Source: Porogramme epimiltina (lineage: Eukaryota > Basidiomycota > Agaricomycetes > Polyporales > Polyporaceae). From it: a DNA stretch of 49,285 nucleotides. The notes below the pieces were generated by a model. The model did not search any database. It was given only the letters and a program-made list of their open reading frames with translations, and was not told the origin of the DNA. The translations under genes and the position numbers were made by a program. Numbering within the stretch: the first letter of the stretch is position 1; each line of letters starts with the position of its first letter. Shown here piece by piece: positions 15,024 to 44,795 of the stretch. The stretch covers positions 1 to 49,285 of the forward strand of contig FTLJ01000527.1 in the NCBI GenBank assembly GCA_900155495.1, written 5' to 3'.

Positions 15024-16736
15024 TTAAGGGTTGGGTGAGGGGTTCACACCGGTATGTTCTCTATCTGAGTCAGAGCATACGACTGCACCGTAGACTGAAC
15101 CTGGGCTCATGGTGTCCACGGACTGCGGAGCACGAAACGCGATAGTGTCCATGTGGATATCAGCAGATGCCGTAGACCGGCAGTCAAGGTTGTCGAGACT
15201 TGAGTTGTTGGCCCATAAGGGGAAGTGGACGTGCATCGCGGCTGCTTCGCGAAGGTCTAGAATAAAATGACAGGTCGAGATCGCGACGATTCTACGAATA
15301 GATATCAGTCGAAGGTCACAGAACGTGGGAAGGACGCGTACGTTGAGAGCCACTGCGACATAGGGTGGATGAGCTATGCAAGCAGGAATTAGTACTATCC
15401 AGTGAGGAAGCGAGTATAAGCTCACGTAGGTCGTGTGAATCATTCCAATGTTCAATATACAAGCGCCGACGATCGCCCTGGAAGGCGGCGCATGAGCATA
15501 TGGCACATTGCTCACGTACCCTGTGCTTACGAGAAGTAGATGTTCCCTAATGTGTCACCATTCGTTAGTTATCGTGTAAACATATGTAAAAGGGGCGTAT
15601 ACATACCATCACAGAAAAGTACATCCGTGAGTTGAGATGTGAAGCTTATCTTGGCTGACGCCCTCATCGACCTTGTTCGCACCCATGTCACTCCGAGAAC
15701 GATCGTGTTCGCGATCATAGCGCACGCGCGCGATACTACTAACCCTGAAAAGGATGGAGGTGTTAGATGCTGGAACCTCCACAATTACGTGCACACACCA
15801 CTGATATGCGATATAAGTGACAACATAGGGCATTCAAGGTAGTTAAAACTTACATTTTAGAGCGAAACGCAAGGTTGCTGTCTATGTTGCATGAACTGGG
15901 AGAAATGTATGGCTCGAAAGTTGCTCTGTTCTTTATTATTGCGTGCTAGAAGATGATATCTCAGTGCCACGCAATGGCACGCATCGAGAGAAATAGTTTT
16001 AGTCCGCCGCTCACAATGGAGGCCGCAACATACAACGTGCACAGGAGGGCAATCAATGAAGGTGCCCAATACCGCCGTCCATGTAGCAGAGCAAACACTC
16101 TAAGACTACAAAACACTAAGGGGGTATCCAAGTGCACCAGCGTTGGTGATCCGGCCTTTGCGCGCAGCAATACGGTAATGTGTACTGACCTGCTGACACG
16201 ACACACACGATCATGTTCGCGATCAACACTATTCGTAATAAAAGTGTGCAGCTAGCGACAACCGTGGTACGTGGCACTCAGACGTGAGTGAAACGTCGAG
16301 GATATTCGCCTACCTCTGTAACATGAGAAATAAGTAAGCTTATCAACGATTGTAAAGATTAAAATAATGAGCAGCTTCACCTGATCAGACTTCTTGGGAA
16401 ACAGGAGTATAATCAAGATTTGAGGGATCGTAGATGCTAGAGCTGTGTAGCGGGAAATAAAGAAAATAAATGACGGCGAGCCGGAGCGTGCATTCCTCCA
16501 CACGTATTTTACCTCTCGGTCGAGGGTAAGGACATGATCGTATAGAAGCAGAGCTTTGCACATTCATCGTCACAGCGTTGAAGAAAGGGGACATCATCAC
16601 TCACTGACAGACGCCATACAGCTGAGCTGTACAACGAGACTGGAAAAAAGAATCAAGTTGGAAGTGCAGCAAAATTGAGACGGGTCTAGACTCACTTCTG
16701 GTGCGCTAAGATAGTCAGGTTGTCAAGTAAAATCAT
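15024..16736 (-). CDS. DUF6533 membrane protein 1, 13 exons with two 2-nt exons, 337 aa
   Basis: Exons: 16736-16696, 16639-16605, 16553-16381, 16315-16314 (AG), 16251-16190, 16115-16015, 15945-15854, 15800-15799 (TG), 15744-15607, 15546-15531, 15477-15426, 15373-15342 and 15291-15024. They total 338 codons. The DUF6533 signature is LLLYDHVLTLDREVKYVWR in exon 3, followed by hydrophobic helices (ISRYTALASTIPQILIILL; VLIANMIVCVVSA; APSLIALLCTLYVAAS; IANTIVLGVTWVRTR; IVGACILNIGMI) and a hydrophilic C-terminal tail after FILDLREA. About seven membrane spans are likely. Function of the family is unknown. The gene is divergent to zinc-finger gene C. Without the two 2-nt exons the frame breaks twice. 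Confidence 0.82.
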
Positions 16737-17687
16737 TTGGTGCAGTTCACTAGTTTCTAGGCCGAGGGGGGCATTATCTGGGGATATAGTGATCCGTGGA
16801 TGCTGCCAGCTCCCTTATGTGTCTTGAAAAGGTGGACGCCCGTGTACCGCTAGGCTGTGTCACTGCTGCGCTGCCTGCGCAGGAAGTATACCCATATATC
16901 ACGCTAGTAGACAACTTTTTTGTATCAGCGTTGCGCGGAGCCGATGATAAATACGGGCGCTATGCGCACCTTGTCCCAGCTGGCTCGCGCGCTCACAAGT
17001 GGCACCGGGATTGAGTACTGAGACCCTGAACCTGATTGGTTTCATGACTGGGACGAAATTTAAGGTGCAGAGCTGGGGCTCCACATCATGAAGCGATGGA
17101 CGGGTCGCAGTCCGAAGCCAGCGGAAAGCGTGAGAGAAAAGAAGATCTGGTTCGCGGTCAGACCGGTTCGGTTTTGATTAGGGAGAGTCGGCCTGGCCTG
17201 ATAGACGCTCGCGGCGGTGCACAGACTCCTGGCCAGCGAAATCCTGAAAGACGTTCATGGGAACCTGCATCGACAACGCATCACGGTTGCTTCTGCAATG
17301 CACACGTCCATATGCTCGACCGAGCCCTTATGCTTCGGCCTGGAGCTGCTAGAAGCTATATACCCAGCCACCAGTGTATCTGTAGTATCAGTGAGTCGAA
17401 CACTTCTCTTTCGAGTCAGCCTGGTGGTACTGAAGCATCGTGTACTCGGCATTAAAACGCTAGGTCAATCCCTCTGATACTCAATCTAGAAAGTATGCCC
17501 CGACTCTGTGGTCCGCATTACTTTCCACCACGCGGAAGGCGCTGCAGGGGCGTTCACGGACCTTAACTACATATGCGTACGTTCTTCTCCAAACTCTCCT
17601 CCCAACCACCACCACTCCCCCCAAGCTACCTCCCCCGTCGAACCGTCTCTCACAACGTCTCCCTGCCCCCCATCCTCGTTGCCACGC
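16737..17687. other. Divergent intergenic region, DUF6533 gene 1 and zinc-finger gene C
   Basis: It must contain both promoters. The last 120 bases before 17688 are pyrimidine-rich with runs of C and CCACC, and resemble the leader before zinc-finger gene D (23320-23439). No gene-like frame was found; a 119-codon frame at 17096-17455 has no recognisable features. Confidence 0.4.
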
Positions 17688-18498
17688 ATGCAGTATCCGT
17701 ATGAGCTCAACAGCAGGCGCCCTCGCGGGATGACTGAGGCCGCCCTCCATCACAATCCCTCGACTTTCATGTACCTGCCGTCGCTGCCGCCTCCGCAGCA
17801 GCAGCTGTACGACAATGCCTTGCAGTCTGTGGAGACCGACATGGAGCTCACAATGATGCTGTCTGTGAACCACAGTGGGCATTCCGCCTGGGGAGGGATT
17901 GACCCCGCCCTCCAAGGCATGCTCCCCCGCGCGGAATCATCCCTGCAGTTTCACCAATCCAGGTTTTCTTCTGCATCATATGAGGACTATGACAGTAGCT
18001 CCACGAAGATGTATCTTCAGCAGGAAGTGTTTCCGTCTACCCCGTTCCCATCACCCCCCCGGGATGTTCTGCATACCTCCGTTTGCCTGCAAGGACTGCC
18101 CCTAGACGGCGCGGCCCCTTCAAGTACTCCTGAGCATCTTGCGTCCTTCGCAGGCTACACTGAAAATCTTTTCCCACCTGTGGGCCAGTGTCCAGTAACT
18201 TCGCAGATGGAAAACCGCCTTCCTAGTACCCCAACGGATGCGAGGAAGCTGATACCCACTTGTAACATATGTGGCTTCAGTACGTCATTGTGCCTCATAT
18301 ATGTTACACACTGCGCACCATACTGACTGTGCTGATACAGTTCCGAAGTGTCCACGAGATCTTAATCAACACAAGGAATCACATCTGCCACGGGAAGCCC
18401 GGAAGCAGTTCCTCTGCGACGTTCAAGGTTGTTGGAAGAGTTACCTCCGCGCGAACGACTTGAAGAGACACAAGGAGAAGCCTCATTCCCATCACTGA
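17688..18498 (+). CDS. Two-finger C2H2 zinc-finger protein C, 249 aa
   Basis: Exons are 17688-18279 and 18341-18498 (phase 1, donor GTACGT, acceptor GATACAG). The start is the first in-frame ATG; upstream the frame stays open only from GTG. The N-terminal two thirds are Ser/Pro/Gln-rich with an acidic middle. Finger 1 (CNIC...HKESH) is C-x2-C-x12-H-x3-H and is split by the intron just after CGF. Finger 2 (CDVQGC...HKEKPH) is C-x4-C-x12-H-x4-H. The protein ends ten residues later at HSHH. It is a paralogue of gene D (same intron position, same end) and more distant from A and B. Likely a DNA-binding regulator; target unknown. Confidence 0.83.
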
Positions 18499-19640
18499 CT
18501 AGTAAGTATATGCATCCCCTTTATTTGCTTTCCTGGTGCACCGACTGACATATGATACATCATACGCCTACAGCTCCACCCATCCGATTTCGTTCCGTAG
18601 TCGCCTAAAAGACGACGTTCTCGAAGACTGCTCAACACAGTTTGAACGGTCCTCAATCACGCCGACTTCCTAGACCTCCACGGATGTCCCCGGATGCTAC
18701 ATGCCCATGCACGTGCCTACGGCCTCCTCCGCATCCCCAGTATAACCTGCAGTACCTGCGCCTCAACTTCGTGCACCCCTCGAGTGGGCGGCACGCGACT
18801 TCCGTCCTGACCTAACGATTTCTCGATCTCCTACCTAGCGAGGAAGGAAATCAAGATTCTATCGTGGAACAGGACGAGGGTTGCGTGTCGCCCCTCGAGG
18901 TGTGCTCGGGTGGCTGGCGCGCGCTGTAGGTTCTGGCTTTTTGCGGTAGGGCGCCGTTTGCGCTCTCGCGCGTATCACGATAGACATTTCACACAGCTTG
19001 CCAATGTCTCCCACAGTTCGCCTCTCTTTCTTCCCCCCTTTCTTTCTCCACTCGTCTTATCACCCTGGACTCGCCTAGCCATCAGCGCGCTGGCATTGGC
19101 CTCCCTGCCTATTTTGTATCGACTCCCCCCATTTCAACTCCGTTCCCTCTCGGACGATCCCTCCTTCATATAGATACTCTGCTGTCCTACTCGTTAACGT
19201 GACCTAATTCTGACGTACGATAAGATTACGAACTCTCTTACGCATTACCGTCCCTGTGGCCGTATTACCATCTTCGCTCTCACTTCCTTCGTTATGGATC
19301 TGGGTTTTCTCTCATTTGTCTGTCCATTTGCCCCTTTCGATCCCTGTTGCCTCCTCGCTTGCGGCTCGTATTGTTCTTACTACCACCAAGCCCCGCTGTA
19401 CCAAATCGAGATGCCCTCGCACCATGTGTTGTTCTATATACGTCCGCGAATCCATGTGCTTTGCACTTGTACCCGAACCAGCGGAAACTGTATCGGGCTA
19501 GTAACCCCTATGCTATGTCCGCCGAGATGATTGTGCACTTTATGATGGATGTTTGCCATGGGATCGCGTTTGCGACGCGTGTTTAGTCAATGACACGGTC
19601 ACGTGACTTGATGCGTTCCTGGTCCGTGCGCATGCTGGAT
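18499..19640 (+). repeat. Conserved 1.1-kb segment downstream of zinc-finger gene C (copy 1)
   Basis: It aligns almost end to end with 24266-25450. Shared blocks include CATCCGATTTCGTTCCGTAG at 18584 and 24344, GACGACGTTCTCGAAGACTG at 18611 and 24372, CCCTCGAGTGGGCGGCACGC, and AATGACACGGTCAC at 19588 and 25399. A splice donor (GTAAGT, 18502) lies three bases after the stop codon and a matching acceptor (CCTACAG) ends at 18573, suggesting an intron in the 3' UTR. No frame is kept in both copies, so I read it as a long conserved 3' UTR or a non-coding transcript. Confidence 0.7.
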
Positions 19641-20955
19641 GAGGCAGCCCGAACGGCACCGCCATCCTCGTCCTCTGAGGCAGATCTGTTACACTGCTAT
19701 ATTTATCCCTTCTTTCCACGCATCAGCTAGCAACCATCCTATGGCTTTGGACTCGTCAAAAACAAGCATAGTCCATTCATAGTGATTGGTGAGTCAAGGT
19801 CTGGCAACGCCGTCCAATACGCCCGTGGTTCCCCTATTTGGGTCTCGTAGGGAAAAAAATTAAAGGTGTTTGTATTTCTGTCCGCCGTCATACAGCTTCC
19901 GTCTCGTGCCTATATGCTAGAGTCTACTAAAAGCATTTTCAACGCTTGCCATATGAATTATGAAGCTGCGGGCTAGGTTGCATTGCCACACATTCTGTCA
20001 ATGTAGCGTCTCATGCGCAAGCTTTTAAAATAACTTACAGAAACAGCTATCAAAGACAGCATTGCAGATGAGAATTGGCGATGTGCCGTGGGTTCCTGGA
20101 TGTAGTAAGCTGATGTGCTAATGTGGATGATGAGGCATCGTCTCCGAAGAGGTTGACTCTCTCGGGAGAAGCGAGATTGAGTTATGTCAGGTCGAGGCCC
20201 TCATTTTGCACCCGGGGGGCATTTTGACACCTTGAGTCTACCCCGAGGAAGTAACTACATACTGACGTCTCATTGATTAGATGCCATTTATCGCTGAACA
20301 GCTCTCTCCAATTCTCTGGTGTAGACCAAAATAAATATCGTCTTCCGCGGAAACGTTATTGAACTCATATCAGGCACGAATACGTGGTCACACGACATGT
20401 CTTGGCTACATCGCTCGGGCAGCTGGTTCCTCTTCCCTGGCTCTCCTTGGCAAGCGTGAGAGGACGCCCCTCGACAATTATAGATTCGATTGAAGCTTGC
20501 AATTACTGGTCGTGTGAGCATTTACTTGTCTCTCATGTCGCGTGAGCAGTAGCATCTTCCGAGGATAGCGCCTCGTCAGCACCCTACACCTTGCAACCCC
20601 CCTAGATCAAGCCTTCATCTGAGCTCACTGAGTTCGGGATACACCCGGCGTTGACATGGTGCCTCGAGTGCAGTATTCTCGACACCCTGTGAGCTCGGTT
20701 TGTCTGGATTTGCTTCTCCTCGCTACAGCTGAACACATGTACGTCTGTACCGGGGGGGTCCTGGCCTTGTGTGCCCGTCGGTAGAATATCAGGATACCGT
20801 CAAGGACATTTGGATGACTCAGCTCCGAGGGCGGATAGGGATATGATGCCCAGGTAAGCACCAGTTTCTCTACTACTAAAAGCCGCCGCTCCACATATAC
20901 CGGTACTGTCTGTGGGATCCTCTTTCCATCCCCCCGCTCGTATTGCAAACTCAAG
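19641..20955. other. Intergenic region upstream of DUF6533 gene 2
   Basis: No supported gene. Open frames at 20521-20288 and 20969-20625 (minus) are short and featureless. The stretch is AT-richer than the zinc-finger units and contains the promoter of the plus-strand gene at 20956. Confidence 0.4.
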
Positions 20956-22667
20956 ATGGGTTTTACCACCGCTGATTACGCATTATTCAAGTAAGTACCT
21001 TGAGCGCACGTATCCCGGCTACGCTAAATTTCCTCCTTGTGGTTGTCTCCCCAGTGAGCAGGCCGATCTAATCTACGTCTCGTCGACCGGTAAGAATTTT
21101 ACAGCCTTCTGAAGTAGCGAATCTCACACCTCTACGAATAGTTATGCTCATCTATGACTCCCTCCTCACCTTCGACCGCGAATTGCGCTACATATGGCGG
21201 CTTCCCGTCACCCTCTCCGCGGTCTTATTCTTCCTAATGCGCTATATCGCGTTGTCTGCGGTATGCGTCCTTGTCCTTCTGGAGATTACACCCCTCGTGA
21301 CCGGGTCGATCGTGGTATGTTTACCTTCCGTCCTTTCTATTGGAGTAGATGCTCATTCTTACAGGGGTGAGCATGCAAGCCGCTACTTCCTTGCGTGGGT
21401 GCCGACTAAACATTGCATCCTCCGCAATAAAACAGATGCCAAGGGCTGATCTGGGGAGAGATAGGAGTGGATGTCATAGTTCTCATTTCGGCAACAAGTG
21501 AGTGAGCCAACTCGTGTGCGTAGGTCATTATATTCACTTCCCTGGGCAATACCAGTCTTTTCCTGCCTTCGTGTCTACGTCCTATGCTTCAAGAAGCCCT
21601 TGGTTGCCATTCTCGTCATGGTCCTAGGGGTGGCCCATCCTATCATATCCGTGGTACGTATGTGGCGTTCTTGTTCTTCCTTTCCTCAGTTCATTGGCTC
21701 ACGCGTACACTGCGGTAAGTATGCGTTCTCTAAGACACTACGCACATATCTGGTATCCGAAGACCTCAGTACCTACGACGGCGACACATGCAAGTATTAC
21801 TATATTGCCGATGAGCTACTTGTTAGGTTTGTGTCCATTTTTGCGCGGACGACCTTCATATAGCTGACGTGAAATGCAGAGGTGTGTTCCAGCGACACTG
21901 CAGCCTCGCTCAGAGGTGTAACCTTAGCGACCGATAGGTATCCTAGTGTCTCGCTCGTGCAGCATCGTGGCAGACCTCTTCGTGTTGGGAACGACTTGGC
22001 TGAGGGCATGGCCGAGGAGGACCTCCGGGGGCCTTCGGTCCGCCATGTCAGTTGTTCTGTTCAAAGACGGTATGCCTTTCAGCCATGCCTACAAAATTCC
22101 TCTGACAAATCAACAATTCAATGGCGAAGGAACTCTATACTTCGCGTGAGTGCCCCCAGACTACGTGACGGTGCTCCAAACAACGATAAAATGACACTCT
22201 TGTCAGTGCTCTGGTGCTCGTCAATATGGTCAGCATGGTCTTGGTCATGGAAGGCGCGGTGAGGCTTTGAGATTATAAAAATATACTGCAGTTTCTCTGA
22301 CGAGATGAAACAGCTGCGAACCTCGATGACCGTACTCATTGGAACGTATGCTACCTTGTTTTCTCCTTATACTCGTTTCAACGTGACCTCTGACTCCTCC
22401 CGGCCACCCTACTTCCTCAGATTTACGGTCGTGTTCACTTGTCGGTTCATTCTTGACCTCCACGAAGCCAATGAACAGTCAAGAGAGAGCAGTATGTTCT
22501 CCGATGCGTCCGTAGCGTCCAACTCCGGAGGAAGGGCCAGGGAAGCCAGCCGATGGCGTGCTCACGGTGGCATGGAGAGTGGCATATACGGCGCAACCAT
22601 TGACTGGGCACATTCGATCAGAACAAATGATTCGGAAACGTATGAACCCCAGGTGGAGAATTCGTGA
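20956..22667 (+). CDS. DUF6533 membrane protein 2, 13 exons with two 2-nt exons, 330 aa
   Basis: Exons: 20956-20990, 21055-21089, 21142-21314, 21365-21366 (GG), 21436-21497, 21556-21653, 21720-21826, 21880-21881 (AG), 21938-22069, 22130-22145, 22207-22258, 22314-22345 and 22421-22667; 331 codons in all. The protein starts MGFTTADYALFNEQADLIYV and carries MLIYDSLLTFDRELRYIWR (DUF6533), then SCLRVYVLCFKKP, SRSCSIVADLFVLGTTW and CRFILDLHEANE. The tail contains SGIYGATIDWAH, a motif shared with paralogue 3. If the sequence between 21365 and 21497 were one exon it would contain three in-frame stops, so the intron 21367-21435 is needed. It lies downstream of zinc-finger gene C in the same orientation. 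Function unknown. Confidence 0.83.
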
Positions 22668-23439
22668 GAGTTGTTGCAAGGGCTTGAATTGAGACTCTGT
22701 TGGAGTTATATGTTCGTATCAGGCTGTCAACATCAATGGCTAGTAGGATACACTAGTAGGTCTATGCAATCGAAGGTCCTTGCTAGAAGTCAATACCGAG
22801 ATTTGGGTTAGGAGTGTATGAACTTATCGAAAGGATCAACCCGAGACTCGAGTTTATTCAGGCTTAGGCAGGGGTATCAGTTCAAGTTAATATACCGTCT
22901 TCGTTGTGCAGATCGGTTCGTTTTTGATGTCGGGAAACGATCCGGTCCGTCATCGGACCGCACGTGATCATGACCGTCTGGTCCACGAGTCGTACGTAGT
23001 CAAGGAAGCCTCGCTATTGTGACAAGCTCTCTCAAAGAGTAAGCCTGTCGGAGGGCTCGAGTTGGGGATTGAGGGTAAGTCTGATCTCACATTCCATGTG
23101 CAAACCGTGACTGCTGCATAGTCCCGACTCTCTTTGGAGACATTATGAGACGAGTCTAGGAATTGCTCTCCTGGCAGCATGGTGACATCTGGATGATGCA
23201 CGCACACATGTACTCGGACTTGGCCGAGGTCACCGCGGGGCCAATCCGGTAAGTGGGTACCACGAGGCCTGTCATCGTTATTTGGATTACATGTAAGGCG
23301 CTGTAGGACCCGTCTGCAGACTCCCACACCTGTGCTTCCTTCCCCAACTCTCCCTTCAACCACCCCCCCCCCCCCGCTTCTGAACGTCGTTCCGCCCCTC
23401 CTTTCCTCACGTACCAATCTCACGAAACACCTGAACATA
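22668..23439. other. Intergenic region between DUF6533 gene 2 and zinc-finger gene D
   Basis: No supported gene. It ends in a pyrimidine-rich leader with a run of twelve C residues at 23365-23376 before the ATG at 23440; this leader resembles the one of zinc-finger gene C. Confidence 0.45.
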
Positions 23440-26232: not shown

Positions 26233-27960
26233 ATGCCTCTCACTGCCGCAGATTATGCCTTGGTCAAGTGAGCATTTCTTGAGCTACCTAGTCATGCCCT
26301 CAGGCTCTAACCTGCAGCAACTGCAGCGAGCAGGCAGATTTCATATATATCTCTGCCGTAGGTACGTCCTAATCCCAGGCTATCATGCACCATTGAGCGA
26401 TTTGTTATGGTCAACTTTAACTTCTTCGTTGCCAGTCACTTTTATGTACGATCTGCTTCTCACCCTCGACCGAGAGATACGGTACATCTGGCGACTGCCA
26501 CCCACCCTATCCGCCTTGATTTTTATCTTGCTCCGCCTCTTCTCTACATTCGCGGCCCTCTTGTTAATCCTCAAACAGGTGGCGCCCATAACCGATTCCA
26601 TCGCAGTACGTTCATTGACTTGATAGACTTTCAGACACTCATCCTGGCGCTAGGGGTTGGTCTCCACGCACTTACGACCAGATGGCAGTAGCAACTCTAA
26701 CAAAGCTTCTGCCACTAAAAGATGTAAAGGTATCATCTGGTTCCAGATGGGCGTAGACTTCATTGTTCTCCTATTAGCAACGCGTAAGTCTTAAATCCAA
26801 ATACGCGCAATCCTTTTCCTGATTCTCCGCAAGTGTTTTCCTGTCTGCGGATCTACATACTATGCTTCAAAAAACCTCTAATGGCTGTATTCACTGCTAT
26901 CCTCGGGGTGGCTCATCCGAGTTTATCTGTGGTCCGTAAACGAATTATATTTTTTGTGCGTACCACCTACTAACGAATATGATCGGGATAGTATGCATTC
27001 TCAAGGTCACTACATTCGTACATATTACCTGAGAGCGAAAGAGCCTACTACGACGACCCCTGTGGATACTACTACGAGCTAAACGAGTTCTCTGTCAAGT
27101 GAGTTGCTGCGACTTCGGTTGTGTTTCTACGACGGCTGAAGTCGAGCGTAGAGGTCCGTTCTAGCTTGTGTAGGAGCTGTTCGCAGCTGAAAGTGTCATT
27201 CGTCACACCAGTCATGCTCGCTTCCAGGTCATGCAGCATATTGGCAGACCTCATAGTAGTGGGAACAACGTGGGTTCGTGGAAAACCGAGAGGAGTGGAC
27301 GGCTCTAGATTCGCCATGTCCTGGGTTTTATTTAAAAATGGTACGTTCTTTGTGCAACTACGTGGGTGTATCGTCTGGTCAATTCTATCACTCCCTTCTT
27401 AGGCACTTTGTATTTTAGGTGAGTCCACCTTGAAGATACGTATCTAGTAACGGTGAGGCTGAAAGGCCGACGGTCTACAGTGCTCTGGCCGTAGTCAACA
27501 TGATCAGCATGATTCTGATATGGCATGAAGGAGTACGTACTTCGTTCCACAATTTCTGTCGGCCACCACGAATGACATCTATCCAGCTTCGATTCTCAAT
27601 GACAGTTATGATCGGAACGTGCGTTATTTCGTTTTTCGCATCTATAGCACTGACTAATTTGTCCTCGGTCCCAGTTTCTCTGTAATTTTCACCTCTCGAT
27701 TTATCCTAGACCTCTATGAAGCCAATGAGCACGGAAGGCTCACTAGTATGTCTTCTATGACTACTGTGTATATGCAGGCACATAGCAGTGGGGTTAGCAG
27801 ACCGTATATGCAATGGATGAATAACGATGATGGAGGACTATACGGGACGACCGTGAACTGGGCTCACGTGTCCGGATCGGAAGGCCAGGAGACGTATGAG
27901 CTTCATGTTAGGAATATAGAAGGTGCTGGAGATCAGGCAGAGGAAACTATTTTGTCATAA
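26233..27960 (+). CDS. DUF6533 membrane protein 3, 13 exons with two 2-nt exons, 341 aa
   Basis: Exons: 26233-26267, 26327-26361, 26436-26605, 26654-26655 (GG), 26722-26783, 26834-26931, 26992-27098, 27152-27153 (AG), 27212-27340, 27403-27418, 27481-27532, 27587-27618 and 27675-27960; 342 codons. Start MPLTAADYALVNEQADFIYI, DUF6533 core MYDLLLTLDREIRYIWR, then SCLRIYILCFKKP, SRSCSILADLIVVGTTW, SRFILDLYEANE and the tail motif YGTTVNWAH. Closest to paralogue 2. In this copy alone the intron 26656-26721 (66 nt) could be retained without breaking the frame, giving a form 22 residues longer. The donor of exon 6 into the next intron at 26932 (GTCCGT) is unusual. It converges on gene 4, only 115 bases apart. 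Confidence 0.85.
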
Positions 27961-28075: not shown

Positions 28076-29794
28076 TTACGCGTTGTCGAGCAGGGCTACT
28101 GCACATTTCCATAGTTCGAATGGGTCTTCCTCCTCCTCTATCACAGTCACAACAACGCCGTAAACCTCAGTCATATTCCCGGGAGATTTAACATCGTCAA
28201 AGGGGCGTGAAACGGATGGTCGTGAATACTCGAAGGCGAGTGGATAGCTGGGCGTTGATGGGCCATAAGTGGTCCGACTGGGAGACAGCGACGCTTCGGT
28301 CTCATATAGGTCGAGGATGAAACGCGACGTAAGTATGGCGGTGAACCTAAGGATGCTGAGATTAGACTGCGACACAGCTGCTATATGACATGATACGCAC
28401 GCCCCAATCCACGTGCTCATAGGCTCGATAAGCTGTTGGAGACATTCATATTAGATACCTTGCCCCACTGATAGTGAAATGTCAAAACCCACTCCAAGCT
28501 GTCTTCCAAGACCAAGTGCTACCATGTTGTTAATAAACATGACGCTATAAAAGAACCTTCATGAGCTAGTGGATGGCAGCAAAGAGCTGGACAAGCATAC
28601 CCAAAGTATATTGTACCTAATGGAGCATTGGATTAGCGCGAAGAGGCAAATTAGCGCAAAAATTCTCACCATCCCGCATCATAGTGGTCGAAAACGGGAC
28701 TTTCACCCCAAGACGTGCAGCCTCGGCTCGTAGCGCCCCAGCCTTCCTCCAAGTGACAACAATAACTAGAATGTCAGCGATTACCGTAGCCACACGACCG
28801 CCAATCACCCCTAGGTTACTGTTTAGCGCTGCATAGAAATTGTGCTAAACTATCCAGAGGGCACTAACAACTAGCGAACGCCAAAGGCGGTAAGTTTGGG
28901 TCGCTGAACGATTTCAAAACACGACGCAGCTTACTTTTGGTACGTCTCAACGGCGAGAAATGTGTAAAATGAACATGCTACTGTCCTGAATCCGTCCAGA
29001 GAGACCGACATCGTAGTGAAAGTGTACTGTGAAAGCTCGGTGTCATTAAGCATGAAAAGAAGAGATAGAAAGCGAAACTCACAAGAGAGACTACAGGGTT
29101 AATGATGCCTATGAGAAGGGCGGACACCAAGATGAGACGATTTCTCTTAGACACGGCGTATGCTCTCAGCGCGGAGAAGACTATTGGAAGCGTGAGTTAG
29201 CCCAGAGGGGTAGACAAGTGGTTACCGGTCACCACTCACCCGCAGCGGCAGAGAACATAGTCACGTTCAAGACCATCTCCGAGTGCACGAGAATAGAACA
29301 GCTGATGGAGAAGAAGTCAATGCCCAACATTTGGAAGCGATACGACAGCCCAGCGACATGAGATCGTCACCTCTGCGATGATTCGTATGAGAATTGGTAG
29401 CATTCAGCTTGAAATGTGTAGCACATACCGTTACGCTTTGCCCCTTCCACTCAGTCAGGTCCAGGAAGACAATGATCGTGTTGAGGAATGCGGAATAACG
29501 AATGACGTAAAAATGGAGTGTGGAGACGGAAAAGCCTCGACGCCACATGTATTCCGCCTCGCGTCCGAAGGTGAGGACATAGTCGAAGATGAACAACGCT
29601 GTAAAGGAAAGGGAAGAGAACCCAGGTGCATAAGCGAGGCTCAGCGGAGCGTGGGGGGTAACTCACCTGAGGCAGCAATGAAATTGAGCCTCGTAACCCA
29701 GCTGTGACATGAGGATGGATCAGGAAGGGGCGGCCTGTGTAGCGGATGGAACATACTCTGAATATACGGCGGCCGCAAGAGTTGCATCGTACAT
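28076..29794 (-). CDS. DUF6533 membrane protein 4, 13 exons with two 2-nt exons, 336 aa
   Basis: Exons: 29794-29757, 29701-29667, 29598-29429, 29372-29371 (AG), 29301-29240, 29180-29083, 29026-28935, 28870-28869 (TT), 28810-28670, 28616-28601, 28544-28493, 28432-28401 and 28346-28076; 337 codons. DUF6533 core is LFIFDYVLTFGREAEYMWRR, in which the usual Asp before Arg-Glu is Gly. Later blocks: FSALRAYAVSKRNR, GRVATVIADILVIVVTW, LIEPMSTWIGA and SRFILDLYETEA; the tail has EVYGVVV. Exons 4 and 5 (62 and 98 nt) match the paralogues exactly. Tail-to-tail with gene 3. Function unknown. Confidence 0.83.
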
Positions 29795-30686: not shown

Positions 30687-32471
30687 TCAAGCGGAGTCCG
30701 CGGGGCCCTCGCCGGGACCCTCCTCCTCGCTCGGCGACGGCGGGGGCACGCCCGTGTCCCAGTCGACCCGCGCGCCATACACCTCCGCCGCGCTCCCCTG
30801 TCGTGGCCGCGCCCAACTCCGCTCCGCGCTGGGGCCGTCGAGGGCGCCGTCGAGGGCGAGCCGGCGCGCGTCCCATCCCTGAGAAGCGAGCTCGACGTCG
30901 TCGTGCTGGAAGCGCAGCTGGCGCGTCGCGACGTTGGGCACGCCCGAGACCGTGGACGCCCACCCGCCCGCCTTGGCATTCGCCTCGTGCAGGTCGAGGA
31001 TGAAGCGGCAGGTGAATACGACGGTGATGCTGCGGTGAGAGTAGGGTGAGTGGCGTGTGCGAAGAGAGGCGCAGTGTGGGAGGGGGGACGTACGCGCCGA
31101 TGATGTTCATGACTGAAATCGGGACCTGGGAAGGAGGTGACGTCATTGGTGAGGGATGGCGCGAAACGGCAGGTGGGGCTTACTTCGGAATTCGAGATGA
31201 GGAATATGCTAACTAGGTTGGAAACTGCAAGCCCACTGGAGCATATAGTGAATTAGATACGCGGAGAGACAGGCGAGAGGCACTTCGAACGTACACAAAA
31301 TATATGGTACCTAGGGTAGCATACATGAGCCATCGATGAGCAAAATAAATTGAACAGTAATGCTCACCGTCTTCGAATAGTACAGCAGATACAGTAGTTG
31401 CGAAATCTTTGCCCTCTCTCGTCGGCCATGTTCGCGCCCACGTCGCGAAGAGGACGATGACGTCCGATAATACGGCGCAGACGCGTGCAGCTATAAGGGC
31501 TGTTAAAAGGGATGGGGTGTTTAGCCAGGGCGCGATACGTCGAGTACCCCAGTACGAACCGCTGCAGTGGAGAAAACGCATATAGTCAGCTGCTGTAGAC
31601 TGTACGCCAAAATTGGAGACAGGGCTTACTTCCTGAGTTCGGGAAGAGAGGTGAAGTGGTATCGACATCCGCGGTACACCTCAGTGTCATACACGGATGT
31701 TTGGAGAATGCTAGCAAATACGTACTAGCAGTCGCCACTATGTCAACTACGGTTCAAGGGACACAAGAAAACGAACAACTCACAATAGCTACAGCGGGAT
31801 GCGCAATCCCTATGATCAATACAATGCCCGCCAGCCACGAATTGCTTGCACACAGGACATATACTCGTAGCGCGGAGAACGCTGTGGGGGGAGGGGGACT
31901 CAACAACGTGTGAGCATGTGACGACGATGAGATACGCACCGGCTGCTGCTAGTAGCACGACCGAATCCGCCGCGATCTCGCTCCACACTATGCCTCTACA
32001 TCTGAACGAAGATGCGTCAACGCGCGTGAACGGCTCGGCTGGGATGTGAGCTCACCCCTATAGAACGAGTCAGGACGGTGACTGGGAGAATAGGAGAGAC
32101 GGACGCACTGCGTTGCTTCTGGTGATGAAGAGCCCGAGTTTGAAGATGGTGACGATGCCTGCGACGGCGATGGCGCCGTAGCGGAGCATGAAGAACAGTA
32201 CCGACGCCCGCGAGAACCCCCGAGACCACATATAGTGCATCTCGCGGTCCATGGTGAGGAGATGATCATATAAGACTAACGCTAAACAAGATGGCACAGG
32301 AGTGTTCAGCGACTGTTGCGCGGTGCAGGGGGGTCATTGGACTCACTGACGGCCGCTACGTAGATGTAGTGGCTGCTTTGGCTGTGGAGACTGGTCGGTG
32401 ACGACGAGGCACAGAATCGTTGGTGCGACGTACGTGGATTGTATCAGGCTAACGATACTCGAGTCGGACAT
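30687..32471 (-). CDS. DUF6533 membrane protein 5, 13 exons with two 2-nt exons, 359 aa
   Basis: Exons: 32471-32434, 32381-32347, 32281-32109, 32057-32056 (GG), 32001-31940, 31881-31784, 31724-31630, 31561-31560 (CG), 31499-31368, 31310-31295, 31235-31184, 31125-31094 and 31029-30687; 360 codons. DUF6533 core LVLYDHLLTMDREMHYMWSR, then FSALRVYVLCASNS, ARVCAVLSDVIVLFATW, CRFILDLHEANA and the tail motif EVYGARVDWD. The last exon is markedly more GC-rich than the rest and ends in an acidic Pro/Ser/Glu string. Intact frame; function unknown. Confidence 0.83.
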
Positions 32472-33481: not shown

Positions 33482-33535
33482 ATGCACAATGACTACCACA
33501 GGATCCTTCAGCGGCCACCTCCTCCACTCCTATAA
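33482..33535 (+). promoter_or_regulatory. Upstream ORF overlapping the RAD52 start codon
   Basis: An ATG at 33482, seven bases before the RAD52 ATG at 33489 and in another frame, opens a 17-codon reading frame ending in TAA at 33533-33535, inside RAD52 exon 1. Ribosomes starting here would miss the RAD52 start, so translation needs leaky scanning. Whether this ATG is in the mRNA is not known. Confidence 0.5.
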
Positions 33536-35775: not shown

Positions 35776-36255
35776 TCGCGCGGCGCGGGTGTGAGGGGGA
35801 CCTTCTTGAGCTTGAGGACGGATGGAATGATGGCCAGACGCACGGACTCTAGACGCGGACACTTAGCGTCCCTGCGTCCCTTTGCTTCGCATGTTGTGGG
35901 ATGGCTGTGCTTTTTGCTTTTTGAGGATGGGTGGACGGGCCGTCCGTTATGTGGAGGACGGCGTAATGAGCCACGACGCGTCACGACTCGGAATTTGGTG
36001 TATCGCTAGTCACGAGTAGGCCCCAGCTGGGCCGTCATAGCTCGTCCTGTATGTATCATAGCAAACGAATACCTCACATGTTGATATCCCTATCATGGCA
36101 CGAAGTCTTGGAATTGGAACGCGTGCGCGCGGGAAAAGGACAAACGAAACTTCGAATGAAATGCGATGGCGATTGAACAACAACTATGTAGTACAGATTC
36201 GAACGGAGCCGTCCACAAACGGAACTGACCATAGGAATGTGCTCTCGCGCTGCCT

Positions 36256-38859: not shown

Positions 38860-40625
38860 ATGTCACTATCGGACATACAAGCCATCATCGATGTTTTCGA
38901 GGCAGCGTGAGTGCTCATGCAAGTCTAGACACCACCGAATTGTTCCTAACGGACGTCCATATGGTACTGTCAGGCGAATCGTCCAGATCAACTACATCGT
39001 CGCAGCCGGTAGGCTTTCCATGCGCTTGCTTTCCTTATAGTTCTGATGTCGTCATCAATTGCAAGCATTGATCTCGTACGACTACTTGCTCACCTTCAAC
39101 CGCGAAGTGCGGCAGATATGGAGACGGCGGTTTAGCAGTGCGGCTCTGCTGTTTTACACTGTGCGCTACCCCGGCATAGCAAGCACCATATTCGTATTCC
39201 TCGATCTCATTCCGTGGAAAGGGATGTCTGACAAGGTGCGCGCAGCGTGACATTACACATCATCAGGCAGGGCTCACAGTGTGTCGACAGAGGTATGCCT
39301 ACTGGACTCCCAAGCGTCATTCTTGTTAACGCCGGTAAACATCCCTAGCTGTAACGCCATTGTTCGAACTCAGATGGTCCTCGACGTTCTCCTTCTCATC
39401 AGCGCTGCTGGTATGGCTTTCATGTGCAGCTTTAGTCTTCGGCTTACTTTGATTCAATAGTTTTCTCTGGTCTGAGAGTGTATGCGCTGTCGGGGAAGAA
39501 CACCATAATGCTGATACTTGTGGTCGTCTTGGGGCTTATAAATCCTGCAATATCTGCCGTATGTGAACACGACGTCTGAATTTGTGTAACCGTGACTCTA
39601 ATGATGCTTTCACAGTATACGTTCGCGGAGACGACTCCCCTTATGATCACATCTCCCTTTCAAGTGTGCGGCTTTGTTACGGCCATATCGCGCCAGGAAT
39701 ATGAGAAGTATGTTTGATCTTGCCCGTCCCCGATATGCCGCGCTGATGGCCTCGCGAAATAGCTGTCAGTGCTGAATGTTTTCCATGCTCTTTTCGTCTC
39801 TCATTTTGTCCCGCGCAATGCGTGGATTGTAGGGTCCATCGGCGCGCGAGCTGCAGCAGTACTTGCAGATGCCGTCGTGATCGGCGTAACGTGGAAGAGA
39901 ACGTGGACTGCGCGCGCCGAAGCCGCTCGAATCAATTTCAATCCTACCCTCACGACTACACTGATGAGAGACGGTACGTTATTCATCTCGTTCGCGCCAA
40001 TGTGGAACCGCTTTCTGAACATTTTCAACTAGGAACGATGTATTTTACGTAGGTCTAAGACGTGCTCTTATGTGGAGCTTGCCCTTAACATGGCCCCGCA
40101 TATCAGTGTACAACTAGTTATCAACGCCATAGGAGTAGTTCTAAGCCGACGACTCGAGGTACGTGCCCTCGAGGTCTCGCTTTCACGAGTACGTGCACTA
40201 ATGACCCCCACCCAGCTCATAGAGCCCATGTCCACCTGGATAGCAGTGTTCGCCCCCTCTTCCCCACTCCCCTCTCCGCCGCGCTCACATCTCCGCACAG
40301 GTTCACCTCCATCCTTATCGGGCGTTTTATCCTCGACCTGCATGAGGCCTCTGAGGCGCTCGCAGGTGACGACACGCGTCTCGGGGGCACCTTCCTCGAG
40401 CATTCCATGGCATTCCGCACCGCGCCTCTGCACGGCACCGATATCTACGGCACTGTACTCACTGATCTCACCACGGGCGAGTTCGACTCGGACGACGACT
40501 GGGGCGCCGGCAGCGCCGGCGACTGGGAGCTGCACGCGTTCGGCGCGCGCGGGGGCCAACGAGTGCCGGATGCGCCCGTGTACCGCTTCCCGGAGGAGCG
40601 AATGTGCATGGGCGAGGCGATCTAG
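38860..40625 (+). CDS. DUF6533 membrane protein 6, 13 exons with two 2-nt exons, 357 aa
   Basis: Exons: 38860-38906, 38974-39008, 39066-39235, 39291-39292 (AG), 39349-39410, 39461-39558, 39616-39707, 39763-39764 (CT), 39833-39973, 40033-40048, 40107-40158, 40216-40247 and 40301-40625; 358 codons. DUF6533 core ALISYDYLLTFNREVRQIWRR, then SCNAIVRTQMVLDVLLLISA, FSGLRVYALSGKN, GARAAAVLADAVVIGVTWKR, LIEPMSTWIA and GRFILDLHEASE. The tail has DIYGTVLTDL and ends in a basic/acidic stretch near EERMCMGEAI. Sister copy is gene 7. Function unknown. Confidence 0.85.
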
Positions 40626-40986
40626 GGCTTGTGGGACGGCAGACCGCGGTATGGCCGTGGCAAGGTCTGAGTCCGTGTGTACAGTACACTACGTGATGAC
40701 ATATATAGATGCGTGGGCGTAGTCGCGCGGCTTGCGCCTGGATGTGCAGACATGGATATACAGATATCGAAGATGGGGCGTGTTCTTCTGTGTCACTAAA
40801 ATGGGTACCTCTGATCCAACGCCGTGCTCCGCACCGGAACTGGAGCCAGAACGCAAAGGGGAGGCGGACGAAGGGGGGAACGGAGATTTCAAGTTCCGAT
40901 TCTACGCAGTGAATCGGATTTACAATGGAGGAAGCGCAGATTACATAAGATTTGCTTAGTCATTTCGTACCACCATCATTGATGGT
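40626..40986. other. Intergenic spacer between DUF6533 gene 6 and aminotransferase pseudogene
   Basis: No gene-like frame. It presumably holds the 3' UTR of gene 6; TACATATA-like AT-rich sequence near 40700 could serve in 3' processing. Confidence 0.35.
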
Positions 40987-42239
40987 GTGATTCTATTGGT
41001 GGAAAAGCCGCCTTCCGTTTTGGGCTCCCCTGGAATGAGGCTCCCGCCCTTCCGCTTAGGTAATCCAACCCACCGTTCTGTTCGCTCATTGGTCGTGCTG
41101 CCCGTTTCCCTTTTTGACTCTCCTTCAAGTGAGGCTCTCGCTCCTCCGCCCAAGCAACCTAACCCACTTGGCCTCGCATACCACCCTCTTCGCCGTCTGC
41201 TGTACGCCCCACTCCTCGACACTGACACCTTCTACCACATCTCGCCTGTGTACGCGGCCCGATTCCAAAGCAAGGACGAGACAGAAGAACAGTATGTTGA
41301 GCGCTCGCGGAAGGAGATAGGATGACAAGTTCCAGGAGCTGGGCCCGGATACTGTCATTGGTTGTGAGTATATTTCTTCCGGGCCTATGTGCGCATTTTG
41401 ACGGTATGGATGATGCATCCCAGTCGTTGCGGAGACGGTCGTCGGAGCCACCACCGGCGTGGTCACCCCTCTAAAGGGCTACTTCAAGGCGATGAAGTCT
41501 GTGTGTGACAAGTACGGCGCGCTCTCCATCCTAAATGAAGCCATGAATGGAATGGGCCGTACGTCTTCCCCCTTCCCTTTCGCCCTTATCTATGCTGAAT
41601 ATCCCCTCCTCGTTCCTCATTTAGGTCTGGGTACCTTGCACGCACGGGAGACCTTCGGTGACGGTGCAGTACCCAACCTCCAGGCTGTCGCGAAGGGCCT
41701 CGGCGGCGGGTACGCCTCGGCACCGTGCTCCTCAGCAAGCGCATCGCCGACGCCATCAACGGCGCCTCGGGCTGGAAGCACGGCCACACGTACCATGCGC
41801 ACCCGCTCGCGTGCGCCGCACCACTCGCAGTGCAGAAGATGCTCGCGGAGGAGAAGCTGGAGTCGAGCGCGTGAGCGAGTGGGGCCCGAAGATGGGCGCG
41901 CTGCTCCGCGCGTGGCTGCAGGGTGACCGCGCGCGCGCGAAGCCGTTCACGTTTGACGTGCGCGGCGCCGGCGCGTGGTGGGGGATCGACTTCGACTTCG
42001 AGGGCGAGGACCGGGCGACGGCGAAGGGGTACAAGGTAAGACGTTCGCGATGGAGGTGCAGGCGCGCGCGCTGCAGAACGAGCTGGTGATCATGGGCTTC
42101 ACGGGCGGCGCGAGCTGCGACGGGAAGAGGGGGAACCACCTCATGCTCGCCCGCGTATAACGTCACGGATCAGGAGGTGGAGAACATTGTGGACGTGTTT
42201 GTGAAGAGCGTGGAAGTTTTGGAAGCGAACGCGCTGTGA
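40987..42239 (+). pseudogene. Decayed class III PLP-dependent aminotransferase
   Basis: The order of family blocks is kept across frames: NPLGLAYHP, YHISPVYAARFQSKDETEEQYVER, KFQELGPDTVIG, FVAETVVGATTGVVTPLKGYF, NEAMNGMGR, FGDGAVPNLQAVAKGLGGGYAS, SKRIADAINGASGWKHGHTYHAHPLACA, GAWWGIDFDFEGED, MGFTGGASCDGKRGNHLMLA and NVTDQEVENIVDVFVKSVE, with the stop at 42237-42239. The N-terminal third is missing. Frames are broken at about 41322 (in-frame TGA), 41722 (small deletion after GGYAS), 42035 (AAGGTAAGACG) and 42151. The Lys that binds PLP (in AKGLGGG) is kept, but the conserved Asp of the DE motif is Asn (NEAMNG). Several independent breaks make a sequencing error unlikely; the gene is inactive. 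Substrate class cannot be judged. Confidence 0.82.
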
Positions 42240-43149
42240 GTGGGAGGCCAAGCAAGTGAAATTAGAGACTTGTGCTACTAGTACAACATCACTAAGTTGA
42301 AGTGTGATGGTGGGGAAATGTAGCTATGTCTTTTGTAGAATCGGATCCGGCGGGGTCGTCCCCGCGGTACAACAAGTCTATCACGTGCGTGATGATATGG
42401 AAGCGCGCAGAGGAAGTGCCTAGGCCCTAGATTAAGCGGTACCTAACTAGCAGAGCCTCTTCAAAGCTTCAATGCCTTCCCTGTTCCTCCTTTCTTGTCG
42501 TTCTTGGGCTTTACATTCAGAATGCCCTGTCTGTTTCCCGAACAAGCTCCTGATTGCCATGGCATAAAGCTTTTACTCGCCCTGTTTCTATCAAGATGTA
42601 GATGCGACCTCTCTGGCCACAGGCATCACGAGAACAGCGATCGGGCCCCGACTCGTTCCTCACCACTCAGTACTGCCGTGACGGTCAAAATCATACAAAG
42701 GCCGCTGTACGCAAACGGCAATGGTTCAATGCCACCTGCCATGTCAACCAGTGCACTGACACTACGTTGAATGGTTCAATATTTCAATGCAACGGCAGAA
42801 GAACTGACACGGCCACCCGGGCCCGGTGCAACTCAAAGTCGATAGAACGTCAACGAAATCCCTTATCCGTTCCCTCAGGTCACCTCTGTATCACTTCTTC
42901 TACATATCGCCCGTGATAGTTCATCTGGGATTGTGATTTATCTCCCGTAATGGTTGAGATAGAATTGTAGCTCATCGCTCGTGCCTTTTGAACGTTGAAC
43001 ACAGGATAGGCCAGAGACAAGATGTATGTGATATCAAGATCCATTAGTGACCGCAGGCAGGCGTTATAACTTATAAGGGTGTCAACCGTGTTCAGCGTAA
43101 TGGCAAAGGACCCCACACATCCCGATTCCGACCTCCTCGCCTGGCCCTA
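42240..43149. other. Intergenic region upstream of DUF6533 gene 7
   Basis: Contains the duplicated segment 42470-42920 and the promoter of gene 7. Frames at 42495-42770 and 42602-42916 are not shared with the copy at 38200 and are not called. Confidence 0.4.
42470..42920. repeat. Duplicated upstream segment, copy 2 (before DUF6533 gene 7)
   Basis: Partner of 38200-38640. Its position relative to gene 7 resembles that of copy 1 relative to gene 6, so genes 6 and 7 were probably duplicated together with their upstream DNA. The aminotransferase remnant lies between the two copies. Confidence 0.65.
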
Positions 43150-44795
43150 ATGTCACTGTCGGATCCCGCCATCCAGGACATTATCTATGTTATCAAGACA
43201 GAGTGAGTCATGCAAGTCTAGACCTCACTGGGTGGCTCCTGAAGATGATGGTTAAATGGTGCTTCTAGGCGAATCTCCCAGATCAACTACATCGTCGTAG
43301 CCGGTGAGCTTTCCATGTGCTGGTTGCCTTTGCTCATTCTGACGTTGGCCTCTTCGGAACGCAAGCATTGATATCATACGATTATTTACTCACTTTCAAC
43401 CGTGAAGTGAGGCAGATATGGAGACGACGGTTCAGTAGCGCGGCTCTACTGTTCTACACTATGCGCTATCCTGGTATCGTGGGCGGCATATTCGTTATCC
43501 TCGATCTCACTCCGTGGAAAGGGATGTCTGACAAGGTGCGCGCAGTATGTGATCACACTACATAATCCGGGATACTCATGGTGGACTTACAGAGGTATGA
43601 CTGTTGAACTTGCGCCATTCTTGTTGACGCCAGCAAACATCTCTAGTTGCAATGCCATTGTTCGAATACAAATGGTCCTTGACATTCTCCTTCTCATTGG
43701 CTCAGCTGGTTGGTGTCTCGTGTGTAACTTGAACCCTTTGCTCACCTTCACTCGATAGTTTTTTCTGGCCTGAGGGTGTATGCGCTTTCGGGGAAGAAGA
43801 GCGCGATGCTGGTATTCGTGATCGTATCAGGGCTTATAAGCCCTGCTATATCTGTCGTATGTGATCACTATATCTGGGTTCGCGTGAAAGTGATCTATAA
43901 TGTTTTCGCAGTATGCATTCGTGGAGATGACTCCCGCCGTGGCAACCATCCCCTCTCGGGTATGCGGATTAGTCTTTAATCCAGCCATATCGATCCAGGG
44001 TTATGAGAAGTACGTTCGTTATGCTCCATCCACGATATGTCGCACTGTTGACCTCGCAAAAAAGTTGTCAGTGTTGAGCAGTTTACACCCTCTTTACAAC
44101 GCTTATTTTGTCCTGTGCGATGCATGGGTCCCAGGGATCATTGGAGCGCGAGCGGCAGCCGTGTTTGCAGACGCTGTCGTGATTGGGGTAACGTGGAAGA
44201 GAACTTGGACTACGTTGGCCGAAGCCGCCCGAATCAATTCTACTCCCACGCTCACCAGTATACTAATGAGGGATGGTACGTTGTTTATCTTCCTGACACC
44301 AATGCGAATGGGCTTCCTGAGCATATCGGACTAGGAACGATCTACTTTGCGTAGGTCAAAGACGGTTCCTCATAAGAAATTAACCCTCAACATGACACCA
44401 CACAACAGTGTACAACTGGTCATCAACGCCATAGGAGTGATTCTGGGCAGGCGAATCGAGGTGCGCGCCCTCATTGCGTTGTGACGAGTACGTGCGCTGA
44501 CATCCCCTAGCTCATGGAACCTATGTCCACCTGGATAGCAGCGTAAGCCGCTTCCCCCTCTCTCCTTACCCCGCGCTCACGTCCTCATACTTATAGGTTC
44601 GATACCATCCTCATCGGGCGCTTCCTCATTGATCTGCACGAGGCCTCGGGGGCGCAAGCGAACGACGACACGCGCTTCGGGAGCACCCTCCCCGACGACT
44701 CCGGAATAGAGTTTCGTACCGCGCCGCGGCGCAATCTATACGGCACGGTGCTCACCGACATCACAACGGGAGGCTTGGACTGGGACGACGACTGA
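43150..44795 (+). CDS. DUF6533 membrane protein 7, 13 exons with two 2-nt exons, 319 aa
   Basis: Exons: 43150-43202, 43269-43303, 43366-43535, 43593-43594 (AG), 43647-43708, 43759-43856, 43912-44009, 44065-44066 (TT), 44135-44275, 44335-44350, 44409-44460, 44511-44542 and 44597-44795; 320 codons. Nearly the same as gene 6 in the core (LISYDYLLTFNREVRQIWRR; SCNAIVRIQMVLDILLLIGSA; GARAAAVFADAVVIGVTWKR). The tail stops at TGA 44793-44795 where gene 6 has TGG, so about 40 residues present in gene 6 are lost; the DNA beyond still resembles gene 6. The gene may have a shortened tail or be at an early stage of decay. Confidence 0.82.

Follow-up and report, generated by a model that had tools for sequence, protein, structure and literature searches.

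A predicted two-nucleotide exon before a conserved cysteine in the DUF6533 genes of Porogramme epimiltina

How can two neighbouring exons with unmatched reading phases be joined in seven genes of one family on one contig? The question is raised by contig FTLJ01000527.1 of the polypore Porogramme epimiltina (assembly GCA_900155495.1), analysed here over its 49,285 nucleotides (nt), which are referred to as the window. It carries seven genes of the DUF6533 family. In all seven, exon 3 ends in phase 0 and exon 4, which is 62 nt long and begins with one base followed by a TGY cysteine codon, requires phase 2. Between the two lies the pattern AG|NN|GT, which can be read as the end of one intron, two exonic bases and the start of a second intron. 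It is very probable that the DUF6533 genes have here a 2-nt exon with an ordinary short GT-AG intron on either side. This exon is predicted to be included in the mature mRNA, where it would keep the frame.

The observation itself is confirmed. AG|NN|GT is present in 7/7 window genes at the places and with the letters given by an earlier sequence-only reading of the contig, AG in genes 1, 4, 6 and 7 and GG in genes 2, 3 and 5, and the phase of exon 3 and the length of exon 4 likewise held in every gene. All of the flanking introns are GT-AG, with lengths of 48–65 nt upstream and 52–69 nt downstream, in agreement with the ordinary introns of 48–69 nt that had been described. The joined codon before the Cys is Ser in genes 1, 4, 6 and 7 and Gly in genes 2, 3 and 5, also as foreseen. 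All seven therefore fall within the range of ultra-small microexons, with 1–2 exonic bases between canonical introns, and interpretation as a putative 2-nt microexon before a conserved Cys is supported. PF20151 (DUF6533) was found in exon 3 above the curated cut-off in genes 1–4 when the window was searched, and an assembly-wide search matched genes 1, 2, 4, 5, 6 and 7, gene 3 being matched only in the window search. DUF6533 is a family of unknown function and the domain match is therefore uninformative on function. The features of the seven genes are as follows; for exon 3, the part that was modelled is given.

16381..16554, minus strand: gene 1 exon 3 (PF20151 domain; ends ..SDQ, phase 0)
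16316..16380, minus strand: gene 1 upstream intron, 65 nt, GTGAAG..CAG
16314..16315, minus strand: gene 1 2-nt exon, AG
16252..16313, minus strand: gene 1 downstream intron, 62 nt, GTAGGC..TAG
16190..16251, minus strand: gene 1 exon 4, 62 nt (C-TGC..)
21144..21314, plus strand: gene 2 exon 3 (ends ..SIV, phase 0)
21315..21364, plus strand: gene 2 upstream intron, 50 nt, GTATGT..CAG
21365..21366, plus strand: gene 2 2-nt exon, GG
21367..21435, plus strand: gene 2 downstream intron, 69 nt, GTGAGC..CAG
21436..21497, plus strand: gene 2 exon 4, 62 nt (A-TGC..)
26441..26605, plus strand: gene 3 exon 3 (ends ..SIA, phase 0)
26606..26653, plus strand: gene 3 upstream intron, 48 nt, GTACGT..TAG
26654..26655, plus strand: gene 3 2-nt exon, GG
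26656..26721, plus strand: gene 3 downstream intron, 66 nt, GTTGGT..AAG (splice sites weaker; retention would keep the frame)
26722..26783, plus strand: gene 3 exon 4, 62 nt (A-TGT..)
29429..29599, minus strand: gene 4 exon 3 (ends ..SVT, phase 0)
29373..29428, minus strand: gene 4 upstream intron, 56 nt, GTATGT..CAG
29371..29372, minus strand: gene 4 2-nt exon, AG
29302..29370, minus strand: gene 4 downstream intron, 69 nt, GTGACG..CAG
29240..29301, minus strand: gene 4 exon 4, 62 nt (C-TGT..)
32109..32282, minus strand: gene 5 exon 3 (ends ..SNA, phase 0)
32058..32108, minus strand: gene 5 upstream intron, 51 nt, GTGCGT..TAG (possible GC donor 2 nt in)
32056..32057, minus strand: gene 5 2-nt exon, GG
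32002..32055, minus strand: gene 5 downstream intron, 54 nt, GTGAGC..CAG
31940..32001, minus strand: gene 5 exon 4, 62 nt (A-TGT..)
39065..39235, plus strand: gene 6 exon 3 (ends ..SDK, phase 0)
39236..39290, plus strand: gene 6 upstream intron, 55 nt, GTGCGC..CAG (possible GC donor 2 nt in)
39291..39292, plus strand: gene 6 2-nt exon, AG
39293..39348, plus strand: gene 6 downstream intron, 56 nt, GTATGC..TAG
39349..39410, plus strand: gene 6 exon 4, 62 nt (C-TGT..)
43365..43535, plus strand: gene 7 exon 3 (ends ..SDK, phase 0)
43536..43592, plus strand: gene 7 upstream intron, 57 nt, GTGCGC..CAG (possible GC donor 2 nt in; with another in-frame donor, GTATGT, the intron would be 48 nt)
43593..43594, plus strand: gene 7 2-nt exon, AG
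43595..43646, plus strand: gene 7 downstream intron, 52 nt, GTATGA..TAG
43647..43708, plus strand: gene 7 exon 4, 62 nt (T-TGC..)

The assembly comprises 41.9 megabases in 926 contigs, the window being its contig C426. A search of this assembly listed at least 150 DUF6533 matches (of 279 candidates, 150 were scored); these include six window genes, gene 3 being absent. Many of these matches crowd together on the same contigs. The genes studied are the seven of the window and 89 of the 144 listed outside it, making 96 of at least 151, and they encode predicted membrane proteins. Evidence at the DNA level comes from this one genome, other species being compared as proteins. The phase 0 / phase 2 mismatch, which the sequence-only reading had proposed to look for in other DUF6533 genes, recurs in paralogs of the same genome. 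A 2-nt exon was read at the homologous place in 89 of the 96 genes, flanked by canonical introns (in one of the genes with a GC donor). In the other seven, which lack one of the introns, it is fused to exon 4, so that throughout the sample the exon is either kept (89) or subsumed in a larger exon upon apparent intron loss (7).

The evidence that carries this count is a strict test, in which the 62-nt exon 4 was fixed (profile score of at least 8, AG before and GT after) and AG-Nk-GT was sought for each k, with both introns limited to 45–80 nt and on condition that exon 3 had an open frame and that the phases agreed. Where several arrangements were legal, the one with the best splice score was taken. 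A 62-nt exon 4 was recognised in 77/96 genes and a legal exon of size 2 was found in 76 of these 77, against a mean of 8.6 and a maximum of 12 genes when the 100 nt before exon 4 were shuffled in 20 rounds. In the single exception, L038, a 2-nt exon is also present, but the donor of intron 1 is GC. Other exon sizes of 1–14 nt were legal in 1–16 of the 77 genes and size 0 in 23; once hits sharing an acceptor or donor with the 2-nt exon are removed, the sizes of 1–14 nt other than 2 drop to 1–7 genes. Of the models tested, the microexon originally suggested is the only one that fits family-wide.

A scored 62-nt exon 4 is lacking in 19 genes, and in 12 of these a 2-nt exon was nevertheless read. 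In L021, L022, L024, L025, L068 and L086 it was found by the same search with wider limits, the site being picked by hand where several were legal. In L006, L019, L031 and L062 it was identified by explicit boundaries, in L041, where exon 4 is 68 nt, from splice-aware alignment, and in L061 it was placed by hand. Exon 4 of L006 extends beyond 62 nt, and exon 4 of L019 and of L062 is directly followed by GC. GC-AG apparently stands in place of GT-AG at homologous sites in L038 and L069 (intron 1) and in L019 and L062 (after exon 4). In L031 and L061, which are related copies, exon 3 is seemingly split by an extra intron upstream of the 2-nt exon.

Several points weigh against the reading of a 2-nt exon. 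When DNA was aligned to a protein profile in a splice-aware manner, with any exon length allowed and the column before the conserved Cys neutral, a 2-nt exon came out unaided in no more than 68 and 70 of the 96 genes: a refined run placed one near the homologous position in 68 and a fused 64-nt exon in 5, and with other penalties a second run found a 2-nt exon in 70, a fused exon in 6 and other outcomes in 20. Between the two runs 13 genes switched class, 7 gaining the 2-nt exon, 5 losing it (L027, L030, L046, L051 and L053) and L069 becoming fused; conclusions are not based on either run. In the strict test, sizes 4, 6 and 7 also rise above the shuffle maximum (16, 14 and 11 of 77), as does size 0, and these four sizes (0, 4, 6 and 7) fall to 0, 7, 1 and 5 of 77 when the 2-nt site is not reused. 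More than one arrangement is legal in 33/77 genes, mostly through alternative intron 1 donors, and 8 have more than one position for the 2-nt exon. In gene 7, the donor of best score sits 9 nt downstream of the one favoured by homology to gene 6. The 12 genes read outside the strict test, among the 89, depend on relaxed limits or on hand reading, and the profiles that place exons 3 and 4 were trained on these same genes. For some genes the margin over a model lacking the microexon is thin (gene 2, 110 versus 109 bits). The 2-nt exon is predicted here from DNA and protein comparison.

Skipping the 2-nt exon is in frame in 0/89 genes and leads to a stop within exon 4 in 35/89, and with it the frame is open in 89/89. 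It would provide two of the three bases of the codon preceding the conserved Cys and would bring exon 3 into frame with exon 4. Intron definition is how fungi handle introns of this length, and each of the flanking introns would be recognised in this way through its own donor and acceptor. The two introns would be removed successively, because 2 nt are too few to accommodate the complexes of both splice sites together. As every copy would lose its frame by skipping, the exon should be included constitutively.

The same frame shift and stops could also be used. The 2-nt exon may be real but alternatively spliced, with skipping or retention truncating the protein as an on-off switch of the family, and regulated microexons are known from other systems in the passages of the literature available here (PMC11121469; PMC8831610). 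This possibility is rather unlikely. The flanking splice sites look ordinary, and retention in an open frame is rare, being found for intron 1 in 5 genes, for intron 2 in 5 and for both in 3 (n=89). In the window, retention of intron 2 of gene 3 is the sole retention in frame with no stop. Retention or a shifted acceptor had been thought possible in genes 3 and 6; the case of gene 3 stood and that of gene 6 did not stand by retention.

The predicted 2-nt exon is constant in length only, its letters being free. Eleven dinucleotides were found in the 89 genes (AG 36, AC 13, GC 9, AT 8, GT 8, GG 6, CC 2, TA 2, AA 2, GA 2 and TC 1), encoding Ser in 32, Thr in 13, Ala in 9, Val in 8, Ile in 7, Gly in 6 and other residues in the rest, with Cys next in 77/89. 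Features that were not among the search criteria are those of ordinary splice sites. Position +5 of the intron 2 donor is G in 80/89 genes and the intron 1 acceptor is YAG in 84/89 (72/81 and 76/81 in genes with a single candidate 2-nt exon). No weight is put on the intron 1 donor, which was often chosen by score. Median length is 58 nt for both introns and likewise for the intron after exon 4 (84 genes). A branch-like YTNAY motif is present in 77/89 of intron 1, 67/89 of intron 2 and 67/84 of the introns after exon 4, with 50.9/89 in shuffled intron 1 sequences.

Serine at the 2-nt codon is written as AGY in 31 genes and as TCN in 1, against an AGY share of 22% of the 407 Ser codons of exons 3 and 4 (binomial p 1.7e-19). 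Since the genes are related, the codons were recounted once per identity cluster, giving AGY to TCN ratios of 26 to 1 (60% identity), 17 to 1 (50%) and 6 to 1 (45%; p 0.0007). TCN is used by all three of the fused genes that have Ser. A and G immediately before a donor GT aid pairing with U1, in keeping with the 5' splice site consensus. The AGY excess is as expected if the two letters also serve the 5' splice site, and on the simplest reading they would serve splicing as well as coding, hence the bias. Part of this bias can be attributed to common descent within subfamilies.

A single long intron of about 105–130 nt, using a GC-AG donor 2 nt inside intron 1 or some other shifted donor or acceptor, would make the microexon unnecessary. 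GT|GC is present at the start of intron 1 in genes 5, 6 and 7, and one long GC-AG intron is therefore a formal rival in these genes, one that the sequence-only reading had passed over. Splicing from this GC would keep the frame and encode Val-Cys, and a run that excluded the microexon picked the GC donor for genes 5–7 at a cost of just 2.5–5.8 bits. A further point against the 2-nt exon is that, within 21 nt, some shifted GT donor fits 44/89 genes and some GC donor fits 50/89, at places that differ by gene. Single genes are therefore often indecisive between the models. The family is decisive. No fixed place fits widely, the GC at +2 fitting 16/89 genes, or 19/89 if any legal donor is counted (gene 7 included), and the best shifted GT donor and best shifted acceptor 11 each; the GC at +2 is thus absent from at least 70 of the 89. 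A GC-AG single intron in all members was rejected on this count, and the earlier claim that no single-intron alternative works across the family is upheld. Such an intron would also leave the AG|NN|GT of 76/77 genes unexplained. In the closest foreign homologs found for gene 7, P0001 of Cerioporus squamosus (SDR-T-C) and P0002 of Lentinus tigrinus (SDR-S-C), one residue precedes the Cys, as the microexon model predicts for gene 7 (SDK-S-C), and it is Thr or Ser, never Val; gene 6 is close to gene 7. The single long intron is accordingly a very improbable explanation.

More improbable again is that AG|NN|GT is a recursive splice site, a ratchet point within one long intron at which no exonic base is kept. 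A zero-length site does exist in the genes with AG (36), which read AGAGGT, and in those with GT (8), which read AGGTGT, and size 0 is legal in 23/77 genes. However, the other 45 of the 89 genes have neither of these letter pairs, none of the size-0 hits is separate from the 2-nt site (0/77), and the frame is lost in 89/89 genes if the two bases are left out. The recursive zero-length site was rejected on the loss of frame.

The pair of introns resembles spliceosomal twin introns (stwintrons) in that, in the passages available on these, neighbouring introns need successive removal (PMC5639578). It differs from them in that the inner intron of a stwintron splits a splice signal of the outer one, whereas the DUF6533 signals are whole with two exonic bases between them. 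A [D1,2] stwintron, with the inner intron between the G and T of the outer donor, was considered and rejected, as T comes first after intron 1 in only 3/89 genes. Chance, by which a short pattern would have hit seven genes in coincidence, has practically no probability left: AG-NN-GT with both introns of at least 45 nt occurs in 1–14% of dinucleotide shuffles of each window gene's segment, but it is found in all seven jointly and in 76/77 of the wider set, and the size spectrum and shuffles refute it.

In the seven fused genes (L032, L043, L048, L069, L074, L077 and L079) a 64-nt exon, 2 + 62, with one intron encodes Ser or Thr and then Cys. L069 was read with a GC donor and L079 by eye. L079 has a stop in frame in exon 3, upstream of the fused exon, and is either a decayed copy or a sequence error. 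A tree of 92 rows and 79 columns, with most forks weak, omits L079 and also L006, L031 and L061, which were mapped. On it two changes suffice for the 6 fused rows, on a branch shared with the 2-nt gene L052 with a Shimodaira–Hasegawa-like approximate likelihood ratio test (SH-aLRT) value of 96. Every other row is a 2-nt gene, including the divergent YHQ group (L024, L025, L068 and L086). Since the fused rows cluster amid 2-nt genes, loss of intron 2 is likelier than repeated gain, and on this weak tree it is more likely that the fused genes lost the downstream intron than that the others gained it repeatedly. The 2-nt exon would then predate the expansion of the family in this genome, and all seven fused genes would be derived by loss of the downstream intron.

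In other species, annotated homologs often appear irregular at the microexon position. A first protein search gave 4 hits, and alignments used as queries gave 34 and 48. In an FPI..GRF group, P0004–P0018, as grouped by eye, one residue stands before the Cys with common spacing in 3/15 proteins (P0007, P0009 and P0017), other lengths are present in 9/15, and part of the stretch is missing in 3/15 (P0005, P0012 and P0016). Two L. tigrinus models that resemble one gene differ here, P0017 having ATCQGV and P0018 ATYAPMESV. A WPNQTD-like group, read by eye, has one residue before the Cys in 6/18 (P0025, P0041, P0047, P0051, P0056 and P0061) and inserts or gaps in 12/18 (P0043, P0044, P0045, P0049, P0050, P0053, P0058, P0059, P0060, P0063, P0067 and P0069). 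Sparassis crispa P0047 and S. latifolia P0053 match each other across the region apart from an insert in this place. L040, a relative of the WPNQTD-like group in the P. epimiltina genome, has a 2-nt exon giving Thr before Cys, and over this stretch P0041 shares 69% and P0061 73% identity with it. Public models P0043, P0051, P0063 and P0067, from several polypores, join DUF6533 to an EAP30/Vps36 domain; these are possibly neighbouring genes merged by annotation.

The hits include six proteins of jgi source on contigs of 1.1–2.8 kilobases, four of which are alignable over the place. All four have one residue before the Cys (P0023 and P0037 ADK-T-C, P0024 ADN-I-C and P0029 GQA-I-C). Of the other two, P0048 begins after the place and P0076 is too divergent to be judged. 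P0037 is a frame of 361 residues on a contig of 1,235 nt, and from this size it is likely to be transcript-derived. The bearing of P0023, P0024, P0029 and P0037 on inclusion of the exon in mRNA is only suggestive.

The place in the protein was assessed from an AlphaFold model of P0001, which is a homolog of window genes 6 and 7. This model is of middling quality, with a mean predicted local distance difference test (pLDDT) score of 66.2 and a predicted template modelling (pTM) score of 0.60. The residue of the 2-nt codon is 82, and Cys83 would lie near the start of predicted helix 3 (80–112). The nine helical stretches of the model are compatible with a seven-helix layout. Cys83 is invariant in 15/15 aligned homologs, which were selected for an intact region, and a second Cys (153 in P0001), placed by the model between helices 4 and 5, is present in 13/15. 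This layout resembles that of the conserved disulfide of G protein-coupled receptors. A Foldseek search of the PDB gave no match at E <= 0.001, the best having an E of 0.0046, and the 50 matches shown were all such receptors.

Ultra-small exons are already a known kind, with 1-nt exons in plants and Fusarium. The comparisons that follow draw on those passages of the cited papers that were available. CYP621A in Fusarium has a 1-nt exon with support from SRA reads, described as the first of any fungal gene, for which the abstract counts 20 orthologs and the discussion 24 genes (PMC12940212). As in DUF6533, exon phases that cannot be joined are mended in a fungal gene by a tiny exon between two introns in a conserved motif, and the inference was made by comparison with an intronless relative. 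The CYP621A exon differs in being 1 nt with identical letters, in orthologs and with reads, whereas that of DUF6533 is 2 nt with letters that vary across 89 paralogs of one genome and is predicted from DNA. The 1-nt exons of plant APC11 and VPS55 were likewise missed by annotation and are fused into a larger exon upon intron loss (PMC4674806; PMC8831610), and stepwise intron removal has been proposed for that of Arabidopsis APC11 (PMC4674806). They are known from few copies and confirmed by RNA sequencing and reverse transcription PCR, unlike the DNA-based case of this large fungal multigene family. The P450 genes of Phanerochaete, also a white-rot basidiomycete, have frequent introns of 45–55 base pairs (bp) and very small exons, but the shortest reported is 6 bp and the microexons are scattered over families with no single conserved position (PMC1184071).

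Snowball (SNB1) of Coprinopsis, which is required for fruiting-body patterning, shares the DUF6533 domain and has seven predicted transmembrane helices (PMC10949477). The word intron is absent from the text of that paper and its available passages are silent on a microexon. The snb1 group has 1–5 copies per species, against the at least 150 DUF6533 matches listed here, and the groups need not coincide. In the available parts of the open-licence literature, no mention of a microexon in DUF6533 was found, nor of a 2-nt exon at one place across a family of such size with free letters.

A wider reading can be offered tentatively, with slightly less than even confidence. The 2-nt exon may be obligatory in almost all of the receptor-like DUF6533 superfamily of mushroom-forming fungi, a single genome making well over a hundred proteins that depend on it for their frame. 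Its letters would have a double role, as part of a codon and as a 5' splice site contact, shaping Ser to AGY rather than TCN. An obligatory order of intron removal would act as a frame checkpoint, and a large proportion of published models of the family would be wrong here.

Evidence on the way in which the spliceosome copes with exons too small for exon definition has so far come from few genes. One genome would here offer about 90 natural versions of a 2-nt exon at a homologous place, with the eleven dinucleotides and seven natural fusions, spanning many donor and acceptor strengths. The order of intron removal, its sequence limits and its fidelity would be readable from one RNA sample. Gene-finding programs are likely to miss the 2-nt exon often, and the gene models of the large DUF6533 family often look irregular exactly at the start of the third predicted helix. 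The same annotation blind spot may hide in other fungal families.

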